Position numbers and translations under genes: made by a program
NCBI GenBank assembly: GCA_020629755.1
Contig: JAHDCS010000008.1
Location: 1 to 52,351, forward strand
Direction: 5' to 3'
Length of the DNA: 52,351 nt
Origin: Flavobacteriales bacterium
GTDB taxonomy: Bacteria > Bacteroidota > Bacteroidia > Flavobacteriales_G > JALEGO01
The notes under the pieces: model-generated
Told to the model about the DNA's origin: nothing
The model's input: only the letters and a program-made list of their open reading frames with translations
Databases searched by the model: none
Shown here: positions 17,584 to 29,466 of the stretch, in pieces
Position numbering within the stretch: position 1 is the first letter of the stretch
Layout: each line of letters opens with the position of its first letter

Positions 17584-17979
17584 TTAAGACGGGATAGGAA
17601 TAAACTTGAACGGAATATCAGTAATGCTCTGAAATTCTTCTCCGGCTTCTAAAATATCTTCATCCATCTCTTCGTAATGCCAGCAAATTTGAATTTTAAT
17701 GCCTGCATTTTCAGATTGAATATCATCTATTTTAGACATAATATCCATAATATATTTTGCTGACGATGAATTGAAATATTCAAAATTAAAATTGAATTGA
17801 ATCTCTTTAGATTGTCCACTTAATGAGGCTCCAAAATTATGTATCCACTCTAATACTGGTTCATAAAACTTACGCACGTCTTCTGGTCTTGACTCTCCAG
17901 ATATTTCAAAGAAATTTTCAGACGGATCAAATGTAATTTTAGGTGAACTTTCTGTGGCTTCAATCCTTAAGGCTTCCAT
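17584..17979 (-). CDS. SiaC-like regulatory phosphoprotein (DUF1987)
   Basis: The 131-residue protein matches the SiaC/DUF1987 family. In Pseudomonas aeruginosa, SiaC is phosphorylated by SiaB and dephosphorylated by SiaA, and in its unphosphorylated form activates the diguanylate cyclase SiaD. The conserved start is ITFDPSENFFEISGES (15-30). The serine cluster after FEYFN (Ser71-Ser73) corresponds to the phospho-acceptor region. It is the last gene of a five-gene operon, 12 bases after siaB-like. No GGDEF gene lies nearby, so its partner here is unknown. Confidence 0.87.
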   Translation of the reverse strand: MEALRIEATESSPKITFDPSENFFEISGESRPEDVRKFYEPVLEWIHNFGASLSGQSKEIQFNFNFEYFNSSSAKYIMDIMSKIDDIQSENAGIKIQICWHYEEMDEDILEAGEEFQSITDIPFKFIPIPS

Positions 17980-17991
17980 TGTTTGCGTTGT

Positions 17992-18561
17992 TTATGTATT
18001 AGAAATTGTTGTTTGTAACCCAAAAAATACTAAATTATCGCAATAATCACTAAAAAAACAATCAATTTTATTCTTAGATTTCATCGCAATTTCAATAATG
18101 CCTAAACCTGCCCCACCTTTTGTGGAGATTTCACCTTCTAAAAGTCTCTCTAAATGTGCTTTTTTAAGGGCTTCTTGATCAAGGCTATTCACATAACTAA
18201 TCTTCTTTTCTAAGATTTCTTGCTCTTCTTTTTTGATCAAATTACCTACCATAATCTTTATGGTTGTTTGGTCTGTAGAAAGCACTACAATACCATCTTT
18301 TTGTATTTCTGTAGTAGTAACCGTGTGTTTTAAAATATTTTCAAGGCATTCCACTAAAATGCTGTAGGTCTTTTTAAATACTCTTCTCTCTATGTTTCTT
18401 TTCTGCATATCAAGCCTAGCCTGACGAAGAAGCATATTGATCACCGCCTGATTAAATCCACCATGATAAGCCGCTAAAATACCTTTGCTTTCCATGTGCT
18501 TATACACTGGATACACAATGTCTCTTAGATTGGGGTATTCCTTTTTAAACTCAATATCCAC
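17992..18561 (-). CDS. SiaB-like GHKL-type protein kinase
   Basis: The 189-residue protein resembles SiaB-family kinases (DUF6272). The ATP-binding N-box is ECLEN (Glu71 to Asn75), and the glycine box is GGAGLG (149-154). It probably phosphorylates the SiaC-like protein encoded 12 bases downstream, opposing the phosphatase encoded 10 bases upstream. It lacks the phospho-acceptor histidine domain of a classical sensor kinase, which fits a partner-switching role analogous to an anti-sigma-factor kinase. Confidence 0.85.
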   Translation of the reverse strand: MDIEFKKEYPNLRDIVYPVYKHMESKGILAAYHGGFNQAVINMLLRQARLDMQKRNIERRVFKKTYSILVECLENILKHTVTTTEIQKDGIVVLSTDQTTIKIMVGNLIKKEEQEILEKKISYVNSLDQEALKKAHLERLLEGEISTKGGAGLGIIEIAMKSKNKIDCFFSDYCDNLVFFGLQTTISNT

Positions 18562-18571
18562 TTCTAGGCTC

Positions 18572-21500
18572 TTATACTTTTACACCAAAAATTAACATAT
18601 CATCGTATTGCTCATGATCTCCTTTCCATTTATCAATGGTCTGTTCTAACTTTATTTTTTGATTAGAAAGTGGCAAAGTGTAAATATCACATAAGAGTTT
18701 TCTAAATGGTGGATAGAAGAATTTTTTATTTTTTGGCCCACCTTTTTGATCTGCAAACCCATCTGAAAATAGATAAATCATATCGCCCTTTTGAATCTCA
18801 ATTTTCTTATTGGTAAACTTTTTTCCTGATTCAAAGCCTTTTTTACCAATCGCTAATTTATCGCTTTTTGTTTCTTGAATCTCGCCCTCTCTAACAATGT
18901 AAAGCGGATTATATGCGCCAGCAAACTCTAATATTTCACCTGTTGAATCAATAGAACATACCGATAAATCCATGCCATCTTTAACCGCATCAGAGCTTGT
19001 ATCTTGTCTTAAGGTTTTGGTGATTTCTTCAGAGAGTAAATCTAAAATTTTTGCTGGATTATACTCTTTGTGTTCTTTTACTACTTTATCTAAAAGATTG
19101 TGCCCAATAATTGACATGAAGGCACCAGGCACACCATGCCCTGTACAATCTACTGCAGCAAACAACACTTTTTTATTCGACTGATGTACCCAATAAAAGT
19201 CACCACTTACAATATCTTTTGGCTTATATAAAATGAAAGATTGGGGCAAGGCTTTTTGCACTTCCGCCAGCGGCGGAAGAATAGCCTGTTGAATTTTTTT
19301 AGCATAGCTTATACTCTCCTTAATGTTTTTGTTTTGCTTCTCGACAATTTCTTTTTCTTTTTGCAATTCTAAGGTACGTTTATCAACTTCTTTTTCAAGA
19401 AATTCTTGACGTTCTTTTAAACTCTTTTCTCTATAGCGGATATATAAAATAATAAGAGCTAAAAGCGCTAAGGCACAAAGTGCATAAAACCACAATGTTT
19501 TCCAAAAAGGAGGCTTAATGGTAAAGGCAAACTGAGTCGGTTGTGAATTTTCAATCCCACTATTATTATAGGCTTTTACATTAAAAATATAATCTCCTGG
19601 TTCTAAATTAGAATAGGTGATTGAGGTTTTTGACGATAAAGGCGACCATTCGCGATCAAATCCTTCTAAAAGGTAGGCATACTTAACCTCTTTGGGATTA
19701 GTTAAACTTAAACCCACTACATTAAACGTTAAGTAATTTTCTTTGTAGGTTAGACTTGAGCCCTCTTGTAAGGTGGTATCTTTAAAAAAGATCTTTACGC
19801 CATCTACATAGGTTTGAGGCTCAACTTTATTAACCTTGTCTTTGTGTGGTGAGAATTTTATAGCGCCCCGTAAAGTACCAAACCAAATATTGCCTTGATC
19901 ATCAGTAAATACTGCATTTTCATTGGTTTCTAAGCCTGAAAATCCTTGTTGTTTCCCAAAGAGAGTAAAACTCTCATCTTTTGGATTAAACCGCTCGATC
20001 CCTAGACTTTGTCCAATCCAAATATTAGAGGATTTGTCAACCGTGATAAAATGTGTCGAGTTAGAACTTAACCCATCTGCCGCCGTATATTTTTTAAAGG
20101 TATTTCGATCATACTTCACCACACCATCCCCATAAGTGCCTAACCATAAATTATTGTTGTTATCTTCAGCAATACTCAAAATAAATTTTTCTGAAATCCC
20201 ATCGCCTTCTTCATATGTTTTAAATGTTTTACCATTATAACGCGTTAACGATCCCCCCAAAATACCAAACCATAAAAACCCCTGAGAATCTTTAAATATT
20301 TTATATACTTTATCGCCACCTAACCCATTTTCTGACGTATAGGTTTGAATATTAAAATTCTGATCAATTTTACACACTCCATTGCGCGTTCCTACCCAAA
20401 TGTTTTGATTATTGTCTTCACAAAGTGTAAATATTTTATTATCAGGCAAGCCATTAGATGTTGATAGTTTTTTGACAATTTTACCCTCCGAATTCAGAAT
20501 GTTAATGCCTGTATTCTCCGTTCCGGCCCATATGCGCTTAGACGCATCTTCGCACAAGGAGATTATTATATTTTCACTTAGCCCATTTGCCGTTGAAATA
20601 TTTTGAACCACTGGGCTATTGTATTGTTTTCGATCGGCAATTTTTGGAAAAGAAAAAATTGAAATCCCGCTTGTTGTTCCAAACCAAATTCGCCCATCGC
20701 TATCCTGGGTCACACTCCAAACTAAATTGTTGGCAAGGCCATCATTATGATTGTATACCCTAAAGACCTCTCCCATGTATTTATTCAGACCTATTTCTGT
20801 TCCGATCCAAATATTGCCTTCTCTATCTTCTGCAAAGGTATTGGCGTGATAATACTTCATTTCAAATTTATTGCTGAAAATATTTAGCTCTCCTTTTGAA
20901 AACTGCCCTTTTTCAAATACGCCTGTGATGTATTGCACCACCCCTTTGTCTTTTAAACCAATCCAGATGTTTTTATTATGATCTTTAAATAATGATTTAA
21001 CATTATTAGAGGGCAATCCAGAGGATGTGTTGATTTTCTCTAATTCAACAGCATAAGAGGCGTCATATTTAACTTTATATACACCGTTTACACTGCTTGA
21101 CACCCACATCTCGCCGTTAAACGGATGAATCATGTCGGTGGTGTACACTAAATTACTTGACAAAAGCCCTTTACGCATCTGAGGCTTATTTGCATTTGAC
21201 ACATCTAGTACGGAAACCGTTAAATCAGAGGCTACCCACAAATTATTATGTCCATCAAAAATAATTTTAGCAATTTTTTCGCTTTCAAGTTCAATTTGAG
21301 GTCTGAAAGCTGTTTTCTCTTTTGTCTTATAACAAAACACCCCGGCATTATCTGTACTAAACCATATATCGCCATCCGCAGACTCATCCATTGAGGTTAT
21401 CTTCTTAAACTTACTGAATTGCTCTAATTCTAAATCAACAATAGAATCGCCCTGAATATAAAGTACACTTACACCTCCCCCCCAATGACCAAGCCAAATA

Positions 21501-21778
21501 TTGCCTTTAGAATCTTTCATAGAACAGGTGACCCAATCTTCAGCCAACCCGTCTTTTTTGGTGTAATTCTTGAATGAATAGCCATCGTACTTTGAGAGGC
21601 CTGCAATAGTCCCAACCCATAAAAACCCTCTATCGTCTTGAATAACTGTTTCTATTTGTGAGGTGATTAACCCATCTTCTAAACCATAATTCACGAAATT
21701 GCCTGTTTGTGCATAAGAGCACACAACCACAAAAAAGGCACATAATATGCAAAACAAGCGCTTAAAACTATTCTTCAT
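18572..21778 (-). CDS. Propeller-sensor SpoIIE/PP2C phosphatase (SiaA-like)
   Basis: The 1068-residue sensor has a signal peptide (about 1-23, ending SYAQ). Roughly 14 two-component-regulator propeller repeats follow (about 30-660; recurrent phrases such as GNIWIGT and GLPSNNV). Next come a Y_Y_Y domain (about 680-755), one membrane helix (about 762-781) and a coiled coil (about 785-835). The cytoplasmic SpoIIE phosphatase spans about 850-1068. Metal ligands look complete: SGD 858-860, DCTGHG 877-882, SDG 1005-1007, DD 1059-1060. It is inferred to dephosphorylate the SiaC-like protein when an extracellular or periplasmic signal is sensed. The gene overlaps the upstream lipoprotein gene by 11 bases. 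Confidence 0.9.
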   Translation of the reverse strand: MKNSFKRLFCILCAFFVVVCSYAQTGNFVNYGLEDGLITSQIETVIQDDRGFLWVGTIAGLSKYDGYSFKNYTKKDGLAEDWVTCSMKDSKGNIWLGHWGGGVSVLYIQGDSIVDLELEQFSKFKKITSMDESADGDIWFSTDNAGVFCYKTKEKTAFRPQIELESEKIAKIIFDGHNNLWVASDLTVSVLDVSNANKPQMRKGLLSSNLVYTTDMIHPFNGEMWVSSSVNGVYKVKYDASYAVELEKINTSSGLPSNNVKSLFKDHNKNIWIGLKDKGVVQYITGVFEKGQFSKGELNIFSNKFEMKYYHANTFAEDREGNIWIGTEIGLNKYMGEVFRVYNHNDGLANNLVWSVTQDSDGRIWFGTTSGISIFSFPKIADRKQYNSPVVQNISTANGLSENIIISLCEDASKRIWAGTENTGINILNSEGKIVKKLSTSNGLPDNKIFTLCEDNNQNIWVGTRNGVCKIDQNFNIQTYTSENGLGGDKVYKIFKDSQGFLWFGILGGSLTRYNGKTFKTYEEGDGISEKFILSIAEDNNNNLWLGTYGDGVVKYDRNTFKKYTAADGLSSNSTHFITVDKSSNIWIGQSLGIERFNPKDESFTLFGKQQGFSGLETNENAVFTDDQGNIWFGTLRGAIKFSPHKDKVNKVEPQTYVDGVKIFFKDTTLQEGSSLTYKENYLTFNVVGLSLTNPKEVKYAYLLEGFDREWSPLSSKTSITYSNLEPGDYIFNVKAYNNSGIENSQPTQFAFTIKPPFWKTLWFYALCALALLALIILYIRYREKSLKERQEFLEKEVDKRTLELQKEKEIVEKQNKNIKESISYAKKIQQAILPPLAEVQKALPQSFILYKPKDIVSGDFYWVHQSNKKVLFAAVDCTGHGVPGAFMSIIGHNLLDKVVKEHKEYNPAKILDLLSEEITKTLRQDTSSDAVKDGMDLSVCSIDSTGEILEFAGAYNPLYIVREGEIQETKSDKLAIGKKGFESGKKFTNKKIEIQKGDMIYLFSDGFADQKGGPKNKKFFYPPFRKLLCDIYTLPLSNQKIKLEQTIDKWKGDHEQYDDMLIFGVKV

Positions 21779-22643
21779 TTGAGTGCTGATAATTTCTTTC
21801 TTTAATTTTTATACTTTTCTCAGTTTCTGCTATCTCTTCAATGAGCTTTCTTTTCTTTTTTGAAGAGAGAAGCTTGGCGTCTAATTCAAGCTCTTTTTGT
21901 TCTAACAAGTTAATATATAATTTTTGATAGGCTTCTTTTTTTTGCAAAATTCTTTGCTGTATTTGCTCAGATAAAACATCTAATTTTCGACTCAAATACC
22001 GATCTTCTTTAGAATACGTGTAATAATCTTCCGTAAGCCCTCGTTGGGAGGCGCTTTTTTTATTTTGGTCTTTCAAATCTTTTATTTTTTTTAATTCTTC
22101 GTAAGTATACATTAGAGTTTGAAGCGTATCTTCTTGGGTTTGTTGTTCTTCAGGTGATTTATTGGAGGGATTGTTATTTGTTGCCACAGAAGATTGTGTA
22201 GGTATCAAAATAGGTTCACCTACATTTTTATGATCAAATCGACTCAATAAACTGTCGTAACTAATCAGTGAATGAATTAAAATCTGAGGCAAAGAATCTG
22301 GTCTTAATTTAGTCTTTATATACACCGGCCATAATTTTCTATTGGTGTCTGCCTCAAAGGTGTTCACATCTATATTTTCAGGAAAATAACCGGTCTTAGA
22401 AATCTGCAATTCTAGCTCTTTATTTAGGGGGATAGAAAATTCATATCGGCTTTGGCTTTTTTTAAGCTGAATCTGTTTTAACACTTGATTCTTCTCATAT
22501 AAAGTAACGACTACAGAATCTAAATCAGAAGGCGAAAACACCTCTACTTCACCTTTTACCTTGAGGGATTTTTGAGCAAAACAAACACTCTGACATCCCC
22601 CCAAAAACAAACAGATTAAAAAAAGTCTTATTACACCCTTCAT
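21768..22643 (-). CDS. Lipoprotein with carboxypeptidase-regulatory-like domain and coiled coil
   Basis: The 291-residue protein has a signal peptide with either a lipobox at FLGGC (Cys17) or a signal-peptidase I site at FAQ (about 24). Residues about 27-100 look like a beta-sandwich carboxypeptidase-regulatory domain (a KVKGEVEVF start, then ELQISKTGYFPENIDV). The C-terminal 100 residues are charged and probably coiled coil. I recognise no specific family. It lies between the CHU_C protein (7-base gap) and the propeller phosphatase (11-base overlap), so it may act in the same signalling or surface complex. Confidence 0.65.
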   Translation of the reverse strand: MKGVIRLFLICLFLGGCQSVCFAQKSLKVKGEVEVFSPSDLDSVVVTLYEKNQVLKQIQLKKSQSRYEFSIPLNKELELQISKTGYFPENIDVNTFEADTNRKLWPVYIKTKLRPDSLPQILIHSLISYDSLLSRFDHKNVGEPILIPTQSSVATNNNPSNKSPEEQQTQEDTLQTLMYTYEELKKIKDLKDQNKKSASQRGLTEDYYTYSKEDRYLSRKLDVLSEQIQQRILQKKEAYQKLYINLLEQKELELDAKLLSSKKKRKLIEEIAETEKSIKIKERNYQHSNEE

Positions 22644-22650
22644 AGATGAT

Positions 22651-24939
22651 TTAACGTATCAAAAAGAACATACCATGTTTAGACTTCTGTTCATCTTTGC
22701 CATTGGTGTATTCAATTCTATAGATGTACATGCCCTGAGGATATTCTTTACCATCATCGGTAAACCCAGAGAATTTTTCATTTTTTTTATTGGTAAACCA
22801 AATTTCTTGCCCCCACCGATCGGTCACCGTAAACTGATAATCTTTTTTATCTACAAAGGACAATACAGGGCCAATACTATCGTTTTGTTGATCGCCATCT
22901 GGGGTAAAGGCACTAGGCATCCAAATAATTTCTTTGATGGGCAAACAAACCTCATTTGAATTGCAGGTATCATGCAAGCCAAAGGCATTGGTGCCCGTAG
23001 TTTCAATGGCTTGCAGGTAATAGCATATTTTACCATCGATGTCAAGTAAGTCATAAAAATCGTCTTTGAATGTAAATTCGTTTGAAAAAAACGAATAAAA
23101 CAATTCATATTCTCTCTCATTGCCTATAGTTCTGTATAAATCATAATAATCTGTACCACTTGAAGCGTAATTAAAGCCTTCATAGCGGTTCCACAAAAGG
23201 GTGTTTAAAAATTCGAAATCGTTAATCTTTCCAGATAATAAAATGGTGCTAACCGTATCTGAATAGGCATAAGAAGAGTCGCAACTCTCTAAGGCCTCTA
23301 CAGTATAATAATGCACTTGTGTACCCGTCTTAACATTTTGATCTACAAATAAATAATCTGTTTCAAAATCTTTACCCTCTAAAACACCCACTGATTCAAA
23401 GCCCTGATCAGGAAATTCTGATCGTTTAATTCTATACCCTTGAGCCGCATTGTTTAAACTAGGCGCCGAGGGCACATTAAATCTTACAGCGACTCTCCCG
23501 TCTTCTATCACAGATACACAGTTGATGTAAATATGGGTAGGGGGCGTTATAATTTCGGATTGTATCTCTGACACATTTGAATTAATCTCATAGCCATCCG
23601 AACTGCGCACATGCGCGATGTAAAACCTAAAATTGGTATTGGGCGCAACACCTTCATACAAAAACCAAGTACTATCGGCGTCTACAATGGCTATCTCTTC
23701 AAATACGCCCGATTGGTTTAAATCTAGATAAATCTTATGTTCATAAATACTTTCGTTATCCGGGAGGCCTTCAAGAGGCGTCCATGTCAATTTGTATTTT
23801 TTCTCGCAACCCAAATCTTCTATTTCTAAGTAAGACGTTACAAACTCATTGCCTGGGGTCGACGACACATCTCCTGTAATATTTAGCGCAGAACATGGGT
23901 TAATTCCATTTCCTGGGCAAAACCCAACCGACTCAATATCATACAACACTGGGCCAGCCTTAGGGTCTGTACTCGGGTTGTTGCCATGCACAAAGGTTTG
24001 AAGGTTATTTGCAATGTTAGGCTCAAACCCAGCACATGGAAATGTAATATCTCCCGGACTGCCATGTATAATGTAATACCCTTGAATTTCAGTAGCGTCT
24101 CCATTAGGGTCGGGGGCGTACTCTAAAATAACTTCATTGGTTATCGGATCTACTGAAGCTGATAAAATAATCGGACTTAAAGGTGGGATTTCGTCGATTA
24201 CATTCACTGAAGCTATACTTGACTCATTCATGCAACCATTTCTTGTTTCAATACGGACCTGGTAAGAGTTAAAGTCATTACATAAATTATTTGGCGGACT
24301 AAACAAAGGGCCTTTTGTTTTATCTTCATAAAACTCAGATCCTGTAATTGTATTACCGAACGGAATAATCGGAAACACAGGATTAGGACCACTCACCGAA
24401 TAGTAATCACGATATAAATCGTAAGGGTTTGAAAGTAGACTTAAGTCTGAATTTGGCGAATTCCAGTTTAGATCTGCGAAGCCTGTTTGCGAGCCATCTT
24501 CTAGAATTGGATTAGCGAGCAATAATATTGTTTTGAGTACCTGACCTGGAGAGGTTAAACAAGTTCCTCCTCCTAAAGGGCAAGTCGAACCTGCACCTGT
24601 GTAATTGTATTCAGCAATCACATGATAGAAATAAACCTGTTGATTAGCATTAATAGAGGCATCCGTAAACGTAAACACGCCAGGAGCCTGAATGCCAACC
24701 TGGGTGCCTTGGGATATTAAACCATCAACGGAGCGAATAATACGGTATCCTCGAGGTACTATGTTTGGATTTAATCCTACATCCCATTGATTCCATTCTA
24801 CAATAACCGATCCATCTAACTGAACCTTCAAACACTCTACATCTACTGGGGGGGCGTACTGTGCAAATAAATGCTTACCCACAAAGCAAAGCAAGCCAAA
24901 GACAAACCAAACACGACGCAAAACTCTTGTAGATGACAT
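22651..24939 (-). CDS. Large secreted protein with gliding-type (CHU_C) C-terminal domain
   Basis: The 762-residue protein has a signal peptide (about 1-26), then several fibronectin type III-like modules (for example PPVDVECLKVQLDGSVIVEW and later TPPTHIYINCVSV). The C-terminal block starts WMPSAFTPDGDQQND and includes VTDRWGQEIW and YPQGMYIYRIEY, the type B T9SS/CHU_C domain. It is probably exported by T9SS and displayed at the surface, perhaps in adhesion or motility. It is the first gene of the operon that also encodes the SiaABC-like switch. Confidence 0.85.
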   Translation of the reverse strand: MSSTRVLRRVWFVFGLLCFVGKHLFAQYAPPVDVECLKVQLDGSVIVEWNQWDVGLNPNIVPRGYRIIRSVDGLISQGTQVGIQAPGVFTFTDASINANQQVYFYHVIAEYNYTGAGSTCPLGGGTCLTSPGQVLKTILLLANPILEDGSQTGFADLNWNSPNSDLSLLSNPYDLYRDYYSVSGPNPVFPIIPFGNTITGSEFYEDKTKGPLFSPPNNLCNDFNSYQVRIETRNGCMNESSIASVNVIDEIPPLSPIILSASVDPITNEVILEYAPDPNGDATEIQGYYIIHGSPGDITFPCAGFEPNIANNLQTFVHGNNPSTDPKAGPVLYDIESVGFCPGNGINPCSALNITGDVSSTPGNEFVTSYLEIEDLGCEKKYKLTWTPLEGLPDNESIYEHKIYLDLNQSGVFEEIAIVDADSTWFLYEGVAPNTNFRFYIAHVRSSDGYEINSNVSEIQSEIITPPTHIYINCVSVIEDGRVAVRFNVPSAPSLNNAAQGYRIKRSEFPDQGFESVGVLEGKDFETDYLFVDQNVKTGTQVHYYTVEALESCDSSYAYSDTVSTILLSGKINDFEFLNTLLWNRYEGFNYASSGTDYYDLYRTIGNEREYELFYSFFSNEFTFKDDFYDLLDIDGKICYYLQAIETTGTNAFGLHDTCNSNEVCLPIKEIIWMPSAFTPDGDQQNDSIGPVLSFVDKKDYQFTVTDRWGQEIWFTNKKNEKFSGFTDDGKEYPQGMYIYRIEYTNGKDEQKSKHGMFFLIR

Positions 24940-24941
24940 AA

Positions 24942-24982
24942 TTATCTTTTAAAAAGATAACGCTTTCTTAAGACATAGCGTT
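24942..24982 (-). terminator. Tandem hairpins between the M16 genes and the CHU_C gene
   Basis: On the minus strand, AACGCT and AGCGTT (plus arms 24959-24964 and 24977-24982) form a hairpin after the M16 stop. A second palindrome, TTATCTTTT/AAAAGATAA (24942-24950 and 24952-24960), follows just before the CHU_C ATG. The T-rich half of the second palindrome could act as a terminator tail; an operator role is also possible. Confidence 0.4.
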
Positions 24983-24999
24983 GCCCTTTTTTTGTTTTT

Positions 25000-26280
25000 T
25001 TATGCCTCTCCTACAATTATCTGGGTTACCTTATCTGCTTTTAAATAGGCCTGACTTGTTTCTAATACATCTTCTGAGGTCATGTTTTTAAAGGCATCAT
25101 ACATCTGCGCATAATAAGAAAATTCTTGCTGTATCACCGTGCATTTCTTATACATTTCGGCATGTAAAAACACCCCGTCAAAATTACGCACCAATTGGCC
25201 TAAATAATAATTTTTAACCCTATGTAATTCTTCTTGAGAAACCGCTATTTGAGTTAACTTTTCTATTTCATAAAAAATCTCTTTACATGTATCCCTGGTG
25301 TGTCTAATACCGACCTCTGTTGAGATTGATACATACGATTGCTGCGTTAAGCTTTTCACAAAAGCCCCTATACCATAGGTATAGCCTTTATCTTCTCTGA
25401 TGTTGGCCATTAAACGCGACCCAAAATATCCCCCCAACACCATCACTGCAAATTTTAATTTAAAAAAATCTTGATGGTGGCTATCAATGCATGGCAAAAC
25501 CAATCGAATGCTGGATTGAATGGCCTCTTTTTTTCTTATAAAAATCTCATTGGGCTTTTGCAACAACACCTTTTTAAGTGGCTCACTTTGTTTAAAAGCA
25601 CGAGATGATACCGCCTTAAAAAATCGATCTTGAATATTTTTTATTTGCTCTAAATTAACATCTCCAGCCAAAATAACATCGGCCTCATATAGGTTGTATT
25701 GAGTAGAAAAAAACGCCTGTACATCTTCTCTTTTTAAAGCATCAAAATCATCTACACTTAGTTTGCTGTAATACAAACTTTCGGGCTCAAATAAATGTGC
25801 TTTAACTGCCAAAGCCGATAAATAGCTGTTCTTTTGGGTCTGAACCAAAAAATGATTGCGCTCCACATCAATTTCTCTTTCAAAGGCTTTTTGTTCAAAT
25901 ACAGGCTCTGTTAACACCGAAAAAAACACCTCTAATAACTCGTTAAGGTTTTGTTTTAGTGCATACAGTGCCACAGAAGTAGTATCTTCTGTAGAGCCGC
26001 ATACAAGATAGCCTCCGTGTAAATCAGTGGTGTAATTTACCCCCTGATCTGGAAATGACACGGTACCCTCTTTAAGTAATTTTTGAGTAAAAAAGGCTTG
26101 AAGACTCTTAGCCTGTCTTGCGCTACCTGCTTTAAACACCACTTCTATCTTAAGGGTTTCACAATCTGGTTTTTCAAATAAAACGGCTGGTTTACTTAAG
26201 CCTACATCAATTTCTTTATACGTGGGCAATGTAAAAACTGGTCGATGACTTTTAGGCGGTTTAGATCTTTGAAGCATCAT
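25000..26280 (-). CDS. M16 peptidase family protein, non-catalytic subunit
   Basis: The 426-residue protein has the M16 fold but no HxxEH zinc motif near its N-terminus. It keeps the later NIREDKGYTYGIGAF segment (the R/Y pair region seen in regulatory M16 subunits). It therefore probably pairs with the catalytic M16 protein encoded just upstream, as in heterodimeric PqqL/YmxG-type enzymes. The two genes overlap by 4 bases. The absence of the zinc motif is a family feature and not a sign of decay. Confidence 0.88.
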   Translation of the reverse strand: MMLQRSKPPKSHRPVFTLPTYKEIDVGLSKPAVLFEKPDCETLKIEVVFKAGSARQAKSLQAFFTQKLLKEGTVSFPDQGVNYTTDLHGGYLVCGSTEDTTSVALYALKQNLNELLEVFFSVLTEPVFEQKAFEREIDVERNHFLVQTQKNSYLSALAVKAHLFEPESLYYSKLSVDDFDALKREDVQAFFSTQYNLYEADVILAGDVNLEQIKNIQDRFFKAVSSRAFKQSEPLKKVLLQKPNEIFIRKKEAIQSSIRLVLPCIDSHHQDFFKLKFAVMVLGGYFGSRLMANIREDKGYTYGIGAFVKSLTQQSYVSISTEVGIRHTRDTCKEIFYEIEKLTQIAVSQEELHRVKNYYLGQLVRNFDGVFLHAEMYKKCTVIQQEFSYYAQMYDAFKNMTSEDVLETSQAYLKADKVTQIIVGEA

Positions 26281-27521
26281 TGTTTTTTATTTTTAGCATA
26301 ATACAACACAGATGAATTCTCATCTCTAAATAATTCTTGAGCAACGCGGCTGATGTCTTCGATCTGTACGGCTGCATATTTTTCTAGCTCTAGATTTAGA
26401 TTTTGTGCATCTCCTAAATGTTCAAACAAAGCTAAATTCATGGCTCTGTTTAAAAGTTCAAGCGAAGAAAACGCAAAACTCGATTGAGCTTTATTTTTAA
26501 CGCGCTTAAGTTCATTTGGGTGGATGTGTTTTGTCTTTAATTGATCCAACTCTTTATCGATCGCTTCTTCGGCCTTTTCAAAGGAAACGCCAGGCTGCAG
26601 TTTTCCAGAAACAACAAACAAACCCGGATCATCAGAGCCTAAAATATAGGCATCAATAGATGAAAATAGCCCTTGTTCACGAATTAAAGAGGCCTGAAAT
26701 CTTGAAGACTTACCCAAAGACAACACATCAGACACAAAGTCTGTAGCATGATAATCTTTGTGTGTACGACTGCACATATGAAACACTTTATAAATAGCAT
26801 TTAAAGGCACATCTGCTGAATGGTGTAATACTCTTTTTTCTGTTTGTTTAGGTTCTGGGGGGATGGATTTTGATTGAGGCACACCTGAAGGGATGTCACT
26901 ATACCATTTCTCAACAAGATCAATTGTTTTTGCAATATCAATGTTTCCAGCTATGGATAAAATGGCATTATTAGGCCTGTAATAAGTATAAAAAAAGGCT
27001 TCTACATCTTTTAATTCAGCATCTGAGATATGTTGTATTTCTTTGCCTATGGTGGGCCATCTGTAAGGGTGTATTTTATAAGCCAAGGGTCTTAATTTCA
27101 ACCATACATCTCCATAGGGCTGATTTAAATAGCGTTGTTTGAATTCTTCGATAACCACATTTTTTTGCACCTCAAGGCTTTTTTGAGAAAAGTCAAGCTC
27201 TAACATCCGATCAGACTCTAACCAGAGGGCAATTTCTAAATTTTCTTTCGGAAGGGTGATGTAATAATTGGTTATATCGTTATTTGTAAAGGCATTGTTT
27301 TCACCACTTGCCATTTGCAAAGGCGCATCAAATTGGGCAATATGTTTAGATCCACCAAACATTAAATGTTCAAATAAATGCGCAAAGCCAGTTCTTTTTA
27401 CTTCTTCATCTTTAGCCCCTACCCGATAGAGCGTATTAACCGCCACAAGGGGAGTAGATAGATCTTGATGCAAAATAAGCCGCAATCCATTGCTAAGGGT
27501 ATGAGTTTGAAAGTTAATCAT
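26277..27521 (-). CDS. M16 zinc metallopeptidase, catalytic subunit
   Basis: The 414-residue protein has the inverted zinc motif HLFEH (His48, Glu51, His52) and a downstream LEIALWLESDRM segment that supplies the third ligand. No signal peptide is visible, so it is probably cytoplasmic or exported without a classical signal. It likely degrades peptides together with the non-catalytic partner encoded downstream. It overlaps both neighbours by 4 bases, forming a three-gene operon with the NPD-family oxidoreductase. Confidence 0.92.
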   Translation of the reverse strand: MINFQTHTLSNGLRLILHQDLSTPLVAVNTLYRVGAKDEEVKRTGFAHLFEHLMFGGSKHIAQFDAPLQMASGENNAFTNNDITNYYITLPKENLEIALWLESDRMLELDFSQKSLEVQKNVVIEEFKQRYLNQPYGDVWLKLRPLAYKIHPYRWPTIGKEIQHISDAELKDVEAFFYTYYRPNNAILSIAGNIDIAKTIDLVEKWYSDIPSGVPQSKSIPPEPKQTEKRVLHHSADVPLNAIYKVFHMCSRTHKDYHATDFVSDVLSLGKSSRFQASLIREQGLFSSIDAYILGSDDPGLFVVSGKLQPGVSFEKAEEAIDKELDQLKTKHIHPNELKRVKNKAQSSFAFSSLELLNRAMNLALFEHLGDAQNLNLELEKYAAVQIEDISRVAQELFRDENSSVLYYAKNKKQ

Positions 27522-28474
27522 GTGCTTTTAATCTTATCTAAAGATGAAAAATACTCTTTTAATAGCATTTGCAAAATATCTTTAGCAGGCTTTACTTCAT
27601 TAATAACAGATGCAATCTGACCAATTTCTAATTCGCCTTCTGTGAGATCTCCTAAGAACATGCCTTTTTTAGCTCGCCCTTTCCCTAATAACTCTTTAAG
27701 CTGGTCTTGTGTTGCACACTCTTCATAGGCCTTCTGAACCTTATTGTAAAAAGCGTTTTTAAGCAATCTTACAGGCGTAATTTCTTTAAGAGTGAGACGT
27801 GTATCTCCTTCATTTGCTTGCAGTACTTTTTCTTTAAAATTCATGTGTGCTGAAGATTCTTCTGAAGCCACAAATAAACTCCCTATTTGCACAGCCTGTG
27901 CGCCTAATACCATTGCAGAAAGCATGGCGCGCCCAGACCCAATCCCCCCAGCAGCAATAACAGGTATTTGAATTTTACCAAAAAGAGTTTCAAGTAAACA
28001 AAGTGTGGTGGTTTCATCCTTGCCATTATGCCCACCAGCTTCAAAACCTTCAGCTACAATAGCATCTACCCCAGCTTCTTGGGCTTTTAGCGCGAATTTC
28101 AGACTAGAGACCACGTGAATCACTTTAATCTTATGCTTTTTAAAAAACGATGTATAAGTCTTTGGATTACCCGCGGAAGTAATCACTATCGGCACTTTAT
28201 GCTTGAGAATTAATTCTAAATGATCGTCTATTTGAGGGTAAAGCAAAGGTAAATTCACCGCAAAAGGTTTTGAAGTCGCTTGGCTAATCTTAGAAAGGTG
28301 CTCATCTAACACATCTGGATACATAGACCCAGCTCCTATAGTGCCTAATGCTCCAAATTCAGATACAGCATGGGCTAATCTCCAAGGCGAGCACCAAACC
28401 ATTCCGGCCTGAAAAATCGGAAAATCAATACTTAAAAGCTGACAAACTAGGTTGTTTTTAAAATGGCTTTTCAT
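27518..28474 (-). CDS. NPD family flavin oxidoreductase (nitronate monooxygenase/FabK-like)
   Basis: The 318-residue TIM-barrel flavoprotein has FPIFQAGMVWCSPWRLAHAV (about 18-37) for flavin binding. It also has an AEGFEAGGHNG loop and IPVIAAGGIGSGRAM (about 171-185), the phosphate-binding loop. The family includes nitronate monooxygenases and the FMN-dependent enoyl-ACP reductase FabK, which the sequence alone does not separate. It is the first gene of the M16 operon; the ATG at 28474 is preceded by TAATTTTA, close to a -7 element. Confidence 0.85.
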   Translation of the reverse strand: MKSHFKNNLVCQLLSIDFPIFQAGMVWCSPWRLAHAVSEFGALGTIGAGSMYPDVLDEHLSKISQATSKPFAVNLPLLYPQIDDHLELILKHKVPIVITSAGNPKTYTSFFKKHKIKVIHVVSSLKFALKAQEAGVDAIVAEGFEAGGHNGKDETTTLCLLETLFGKIQIPVIAAGGIGSGRAMLSAMVLGAQAVQIGSLFVASEESSAHMNFKEKVLQANEGDTRLTLKEITPVRLLKNAFYNKVQKAYEECATQDQLKELLGKGRAKKGMFLGDLTEGELEIGQIASVINEVKPAKDILQMLLKEYFSSLDKIKST

Positions 28475-28527: not shown

Positions 28528-29466
28528 GTGTTTTTTAAATCGATCAAAAATTATCTTTTATTTCTGGCTGTTTTATGCAGCTTATTGAATTCTCAAAAAG
28601 CAGTTGCTCAATACGACAAAGACTACGGTTTCACTGTTGGTGCTGTTTCTTATTTAGGCGATATTGGTGGTAAAGAAGATGAGGCTCGTCCATGGCTTTT
28701 AGATTTAAAACTTGAATCGACCCGTTGGAATTTAGGAGTGTATGGCAGAAAACGCCTTTCTGGTGATTTATACGGCCGTTTTGATTTAGGTTATGTTCGT
28801 TTAGAAGGCGCTGATAGTTTGTCTCAAAACCCGGCGCGCGTTGGTCGTAATCTAAGCTTTAGAAACGATATTTTTGGCGCTAGTATAAGAGGTGAATATG
28901 TCTTTTACAGCGATTTTGATGTGGGTAACTCTGGGTCATATGAAACAAATTTATCTCTATACGCAGGAGCTGGAGTTGGTGTTTTCTATCACAATCCTAA
29001 AGCCAAATATCAAGGAAAATGGCATGCCCTACAGCCTCTACAATTAGAAGGCCAAGAATACAAAAAAATACAAGCTAGTATGCCTATTTCTTTGGGCTTG
29101 CATTACACCATTAGAAAAGAATATAGAGTAGGTTTTGAAGTTGGATATGTCTTTACATTTACCGATTATCTAGACGATGTCAGTGGCAGCTATATAGATA
29201 CGCTTGGCATGTCTGACATTCAAAAAGCGCTTATTTCTAGACCTGTTGAAGACGATATTAACGGCTCCTTGCCTTTACAACAAAATTACGAATATCCCTC
29301 ACCCAGAGGAGATCACACGGATGACGACGGATACTTTTTTGCCACAGTTACTATCGGAAAAGTAATCAAGGGTAAGTACAAAAACAAAAAGTTCAACCCA
29401 CACAAAAGAAGATATAAATACATTTCTTCTAAGCGTAAGAAAAAAAGAACCAAAGCGAAGTTTTAA
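28528..29466 (+). CDS. DUF6089 outer-membrane beta-barrel protein
   Basis: The 312-residue protein starts at GTG (no earlier ATG in frame), followed by a signal peptide ending AVAQ (about 27). The DUF6089 core begins YDKDYGFTVGAVSYLGDIGG and has repeated amphipathic strands, consistent with an outer-membrane barrel. The C-terminus is extremely lysine-rich (about 285-312), which is unusual for a barrel and is probably exposed or periplasmic. It precedes mtaB by 2 bases. Confidence 0.8.
   Translation: MFFKSIKNYLLFLAVLCSLLNSQKAVAQYDKDYGFTVGAVSYLGDIGGKEDEARPWLLDLKLESTRWNLGVYGRKRLSGDLYGRFDLGYVRLEGADSLSQNPARVGRNLSFRNDIFGASIRGEYVFYSDFDVGNSGSYETNLSLYAGAGVGVFYHNPKAKYQGKWHALQPLQLEGQEYKKIQASMPISLGLHYTIRKEYRVGFEVGYVFTFTDYLDDVSGSYIDTLGMSDIQKALISRPVEDDINGSLPLQQNYEYPSPRGDHTDDDGYFFATVTIGKVIKGKYKNKKFNPHKRRYKYISSKRKKKRTKAKF

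Follow-up and report, generated by a model that had tools for sequence, protein, structure and literature searches.

We analysed a 52,351-nt stretch of DNA from a Flavobacteriales bacterium (contig JAHDCS010000008.1, GCA_020629755.1), hereafter the window, whose region of interest (17584-24939) encodes proteins resembling the phosphatase SiaA, the kinase SiaB and the phosphoprotein SiaC of Pseudomonas aeruginosa. Five open reading frames (ORFs) lie here on the minus strand, with intergenic gaps of 7, -11, 10 and 12 nt. A preliminary description of the locus had reported these ORFs as tightly spaced, which they are (-11 to +12 nt), and had identified among them a CHU_C protein, a propeller-Y_Y_Y-membrane-SpoIIE phosphatase, a SiaB-like kinase and a SiaC-like phosphoprotein; matches in Pfam, NCBIfam and the Protein Data Bank (PDB) recovered all of these identities. 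The co-directional run of five genes exists, but the colinear run is really one of eight, since NMO, M16a and M16b lie directly upstream of the CHU_C gene on the same strand. The features are as follows.

17979-17584, minus strand: SiaC-type phosphoprotein, STAS-like, 131 amino acids (aa); Pfam SiaC 129 bits, alignment to PDB 6kko/6k4f.
18561-17992, minus strand: SiaB-family kinase, 189 aa, GTG start; NCBIfam NF038262 123.6 bits, PDB 6kko_A.
21778-18572, minus strand: SiaA-type transmembrane phosphatase, 1068 aa; Pfam, PDB 6k4e, 4a2l and 3v9f, hydropathy.
22643-21768, minus strand: gene 2, probably a secreted protein, 291 aa; no family match, orthologue alignment and predicted model.
22651-24939, minus strand: CHU_C surface protein of the kind sorted by the type IX secretion system (T9SS, type B), 762 aa, FN3-like repeats; Pfam CHU_C 47.5 bits.
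24951-24990, minus strand: hairpin between M16b and the CHU_C gene; fold -10.6 kcal/mol, z -2.2.
25000-28474, minus strand: M16b, M16a and NMO genes; Pfam for M16b and NMO, synteny without Sia genes elsewhere.

The conserved unit at this locus is SiaA-SiaB-SiaC, because one genome of the same family (G003) retains the trio but has neither gene 2 nor the CHU_C gene next to it. In that genome SiaA (54%), SiaB and SiaC stand beside a TPR/PD40 gene and the CHU_C homologue sits in a separate M16 block (its loci L185 and L195 are one and the same contig). The window phosphatase consists of a signal peptide, a Reg_prop propeller, a Y_Y_Y domain (693-755), one transmembrane segment placed by hydropathy at residues ~762-780, between the propeller sensor and the PP2C domain, a coiled linker and a SpoIIE/PP2C domain (868-1067). 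Reg_prop, Y_Y_Y and SpoIIE each exceed the Pfam gathering threshold. Residues 791-1065 match the SiaA-PP2C structure 6k4e (E 5.4e-38), and the PP2C metal-site motifs are present as GDF (859), DCTGHG (877), SDGF (1005) and DD (1058). The propeller matches the hybrid two-component sensors 4a2l and 3v9f, which bears out the earlier suggestion that the phosphatase carries a large sensor of the Bacteroidota hybrid type. Those systems (4a2l, 3v9f, 3ott) share with it the periplasmic Reg_prop propellers, Y_Y_Y and a single transmembrane segment. However, Pfam detected no histidine kinase or receiver domain behind the propeller of the window protein, leaving SpoIIE/PP2C as the sole output domain.

The other two members of the trio are equally recognisable. 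SiaB, at 123.6 bits, clears the NF038262 cut-off of 85, and alignment to 6kko_A makes its Glu71 the equivalent of P. aeruginosa E61, the predicted catalytic residue (PMC7647112). A glutamate is retained at this position in 60/60 SiaB homologues from relatives, among which N75, H79 and the glycine-rich loop GGAGLG are also near-invariant. SiaC aligns with the P. aeruginosa SiaC structures 6kko and 6k4f (E 2.4e-14), with T68 falling on Ser71 of the motif YFNSSS, the predicted phospho-acceptor; Ser or Thr occupies this position in all 71 SiaC homologues of relatives, window included (60 T, 11 S). SiaB-SiaC fusions (G010, L179, L182, L190) support the pairing of kinase and substrate. Given the family and structure matches and the conserved catalytic and acceptor positions, the trio is SiaA/B/C-like and apparently competent, which supports the switch proposed in the preliminary description.

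The module shares a general plan with RsbU-RsbT-RsbS-type STAS partner switches, in which a small STAS-like protein is the substrate of a PP2C phosphatase and a HATPase-like kinase. It differs from these, of which HsbA and BgrV are cited examples (PMC8457831), in that SiaC forms a distinct family (DUF1987) and the output here is no sigma factor or known cyclase. The closer relative is SiaABCD of P. aeruginosa (PMC7647112, PMC8457831), where PP2C phosphatase, SiaB kinase and SiaC are encoded in one operon in the same order and the catalytic and acceptor positions are shared. The window module differs in its propeller/Y_Y_Y sensor, in a Ser rather than Thr acceptor, in most peripheral SiaD contacts and in lacking SiaD itself. 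The absence of a nearby diguanylate cyclase had been pointed out before and extends to the whole 2.36-Mb genome (98.3% complete), in which neither GGDEF nor PilZ gave a match, both searches having detected their families in control genomes. Across 100 relatives (window genome counted), SiaC occurs in 71 and GGDEF in 2. As there is no GGDEF gene in the genome, a SiaD-type output is very unlikely.

The SiaC surface points the same way. P. aeruginosa SiaC contacts SiaD through Y65, N67, T68, S69, I71, M75, D79, R103, L107, E110, D114, Q10, D29 and Y31 (PMC8457831). In the window protein the tip positions Y65/N67/T68/S69 are kept (as Y, N, S, S), along with M75 and E110. Most of the peripheral contacts are altered (I71A, D79S, R103D, L107A, D114I, Y31R), Q10 is also changed and D29 is replaced by Glu. 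This pattern is consistent with SiaC binding in much the same way to another partner.

A candidate for such a partner emerges from the class as a whole. The TerB-ABCG transporter, a protein of ~1030 aa, combines an ABC ATPase with an ABC2 membrane domain; several members match TerB, and the closest PDB relative is ABCG1. Its gene lies no more than 1.2 kb from SiaB-SiaC in 20 of 64 genomes with both, where ~0.6 would be expected from a simple uniform-placement estimate that ignores shared ancestry. The transporter adjoins SiaB-SiaC in three ways, namely convergently behind SiaC, on the same strand behind SiaC and, in Bacteroidales, divergently before SiaB, which argues against simple inheritance of the adjacency. 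Same-strand operons of the form SpoIIE-SiaB-SiaC-transporter occur in G066, G055, G015, G076, G054 and G003, the last being from the window's own family and cut by the contig end, and some continue with genes for x299 (lipoprotein-like) and x150 (a small secreted protein). Transporter and SiaC also co-occur across the 100 genomes (64/6/10/20, p 6e-9) and when counted by family (31/4/1/16, p 7e-9). Finally, the two are fused. A 374-aa protein of G081 joins the transporter N-terminal module (5-223, E 4e-21 against a profile of the region) to SiaC (255-368), and its gene has SiaB-SiaC on one side and the transporter on the other. Among the 395 genomes searched, the only other such fusion, 62% identical and set in the same gene neighbourhood, comes from G153, which belongs to the same genus. 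A search for SiaC fusions had been recommended; those seen join SiaC to the kinase or, in two genomes, to the transporter N-terminal domain. Because of the operons, rearranged adjacency, co-occurrence and gene fusion, this transporter is the best output candidate for the lineage and most likely the general SiaC output in Bacteroidia.

We therefore favour a SiaABC switch that is free of cyclic di-GMP (c-di-GMP) and has the transporter as its output at the level of the lineage, with a probability of about 0.68 on the comparative sequence evidence. The propeller/Y_Y_Y sensor would perceive a signal from outside the cell and thereby set the activity of the cytoplasmic PP2C domain of SiaA. If the chemistry follows that of P. 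aeruginosa, SiaB would phosphorylate SiaC on Ser71 and SiaA would remove the phosphate; with the same polarity, unphosphorylated SiaC would bind and activate its target. In Bacteroidia the TerB-ABCG transporter and its small partner proteins would occupy the place that SiaD holds in siaABCD, and the window copy, having no transporter in cis, would act in trans. The fuller proposal, for which we see the odds as evenly balanced, is that Bacteroidia SiaABC is a c-di-GMP-independent controller of the TerB-ABCG exporter, that SiaC binds the N-terminal cytoplasmic module of the exporter much as it binds the SiaD stalk, and that propeller-sensor copies, that of the window among them, pass signals from outside the cell to this target or to paralogous ones.

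Several observations weigh against this. The window proteins fall under the NCBIfam equivalog cut-offs (SiaA 206/700, SiaB 64/225, SiaC 82.8/150 bits), and the phospho-acceptor is Ser rather than Thr. The genome holds 5 SiaC, 5 SiaB-family and 9 SpoIIE genes, so that partners among the paralogues may be mixed; a SiaB query of genome contigs gave no match. Whereas at least 20 relatives have the transporter next to SiaB-SiaC, the window copy does not, and none of the four family genomes with a window-type module has a transporter gene beside it. In the trees, this module falls into neither of the two SiaBC clades that are linked to the transporter. Adjacency and fusion, moreover, predict a functional link and not direct binding.

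The strongest alternative is that the window SiaC serves a target of its own that is encoded elsewhere, for example a coiled-coil histidine kinase, an anti-sigma factor or a T9SS regulator, and does not act on TerB-ABCG transporters at all. In trees of SiaB+SiaC the window copy clusters with those of G002 and G003 in a clade specific to the family (support 99/98), while the C52:5734 copy of the same genome groups with copies occurring throughout the class; window-type propeller-SpoIIE proteins likewise form a clade of their own. The window module is a diverged paralogue peculiar to this family. Its separation from the transporter-linked SiaBC, the four family genomes without a transporter in cis and the many paralogues, which make insulation likely, all speak for a target of its own. 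Conversely, the core binding tip is near-identical to that of other SiaCs, and the window genome has two TerB-ABCG transporters available on other contigs, C72 (with x150 and x299) and C34 (with x299), neither beside Sia genes. A dedicated target is thus a serious contender at somewhat less than even odds, while the TerB-ABCG transporter, as target of the window copy itself, is the leading named candidate but a tentative one, with the odds a little lower still. The association of x299 and x150 with the transporter is seen across families, window genome included (L201 9180-10519, L205 4500-5823).

Another possibility concerns the input to the switch. Gene 2 has no Pfam or NCBIfam family match, and the only orthologues found are those of G001 and G002, of the same family. 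The preliminary description took it for a lipoprotein. This is unlikely and was rejected, as the candidate lipobox Cys is absent from both orthologues and an (A/S)Q type I signal end is kept instead; gene 2 is probably a secreted protein. It carries a signal peptide, and a model built from the three sequences (pTM, the predicted template modelling score, 0.42; only moderately reliable) comprises a beta-sandwich (26-147) and a long helical tail (171-290). The sandwich has a likeness to small beta domains, among them 9hfj, the SusC N-terminal extension. Both gene 2 and the CHU_C protein might act as inputs, with surface status relayed via periplasmic gene 2 to the SiaA propeller. In keeping with this, gene 2 and the SiaA gene overlap by 11 nt, every known orthologue of gene 2 precedes SiaA, and the gene for another, unrelated lipoprotein lies close to SiaB at 11 loci in the class, several times between propeller-SpoIIE and SiaB. 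In Porphyromonas gingivalis the C-terminal-domain (T9SS) protein PorA feeds PorXY (PMC7712824), which similarly ties such a protein to signalling. However, the PorA-PorXY-SigP route is a histidine kinase/ECF (extracytoplasmic function) sigma pathway of unrelated enzymes, and full-length SiaA is conserved in a relative without gene 2. We consider the relay unlikely; at most, gene 2 is a lineage-specific input accessory, perhaps together with the CHU_C protein.

The unrelated lipoprotein is 272 aa long, has an invariant lipobox Cys and no Pfam family, and is present at L096 (6801-7619) and ten other loci, often in the order propeller-SpoIIE, lipoprotein, SiaB, SiaC. Its AlphaFold2 model is beta-rich (pLDDT, a per-residue confidence score, 84), with no confident PDB match. 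As a homologue of gene 2 it was rejected, there being neither sequence similarity nor a confident fold match.

The preliminary description had also suggested that the CHU_C surface protein encoded alongside may take part in the SiaC output. The order M16-CHU_C-gene 2-SiaA-SiaB(-SiaC), co-directional throughout, was seen in just three genomes, all of one family: G000, G002 and, divided between two contigs, G001. Conservation of the two upstream genes consequently holds in three of four sampled family members and was not seen elsewhere. The CHU_C family itself has members of ~700 aa throughout the class (FN3 matches in 14/21), and in many genomes its gene stands behind all or part of NMO-M16a-M16b with no Sia genes nearby. 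The CHU_C gene is thus part of an older NMO-M16-M16-CHU_C block and a facultative neighbour of the Sia genes. This synteny, the same-family genome with SiaABC but no CHU_C gene alongside, and the mismatch between a SiaC without an export signal and a T9SS-type cargo make the surface protein a highly improbable target despite the shared gene order in three genomes, and we rejected it. As to the block, it often stands beside a divergent gene related to window 28528-29466, and the ~700-aa CHU_C member has conserved cysteines. The 60-nt gap upstream of the CHU_C gene holds the moderately stable hairpin, a possible terminator or attenuator; promoter scan scores were not above those of shuffled sequence.

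Least credible of all, and rejected, is a c-di-GMP output by way of a cyclase that is degenerate or escaped recognition, which would accord with the homology of the module to siaABCD but not with a near-complete genome lacking GGDEF and PilZ, where positive controls worked, nor with the 98/100 relatives without GGDEF.

Other arrangements of Sia genes were observed. Tandem SiaB-SiaC-SiaB-SiaC followed by an FtsE-like ATPase occurs at L081 (4073-6724, G000:C52), L093 and L094, the tandem being kept in three family genomes; the ATPase behind the C52 SiaC pair (231 bits against an equivalog cut-off of 264.85) is confined to the same family, and a family-2 glycosyltransferase also trails the G000:C52 tandem. 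In the same genome an orphan SiaB-family gene with no adjoining SiaC lies beside a large SprB-repeat/PKD/CHU_C surface protein (L084 8754-12042, G000:C25), and a strongly diverged SiaB-SiaC pair is convergent with a CarboxypepD_reg/TonB-plug protein (L082 2223-5601, G000:C56). Several Flavobacteriales metagenome-assembled genomes carry a ~275-aa gene upstream of SiaB-SiaC (L158, L159, L161, L163), the L158 copy being a tandem universal stress protein. SiaB proteins of ~360-380 aa are found at L197, L153 and L188; the L197 copy has two DUF6272 units, which suggests a fused kinase dimer. A methyltransferase, a ZIP transporter and an S46 peptidase stand beside SiaBC in many genomes. The methyltransferase was rejected as a Sia partner, since it is nearly always upstream on the opposite strand and plain synteny explains its adjacency.

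In the literature searched, from which subscription papers mostly fell outside, a function for SiaC is described only for Pseudomonas, as a diguanylate cyclase activator; no counterpart from Bacteroidota turned up, and nothing relevant was found on propeller-SpoIIE proteins, SpoIIE partner switching in Bacteroidetes or TerB with SpoIIE. What is new here is the linkage of SiaB-SiaC to the TerB-ABCG transporter across Bacteroidia, including operons and a fusion in two genomes. SiaC/DUF1987 is widespread, and in a class almost without GGDEF the switch is common and tied to a transporter down to the level of gene fusion. The role of SiaC where c-di-GMP is missing thereby becomes directly testable, and the output hypothesis would cover the whole class.

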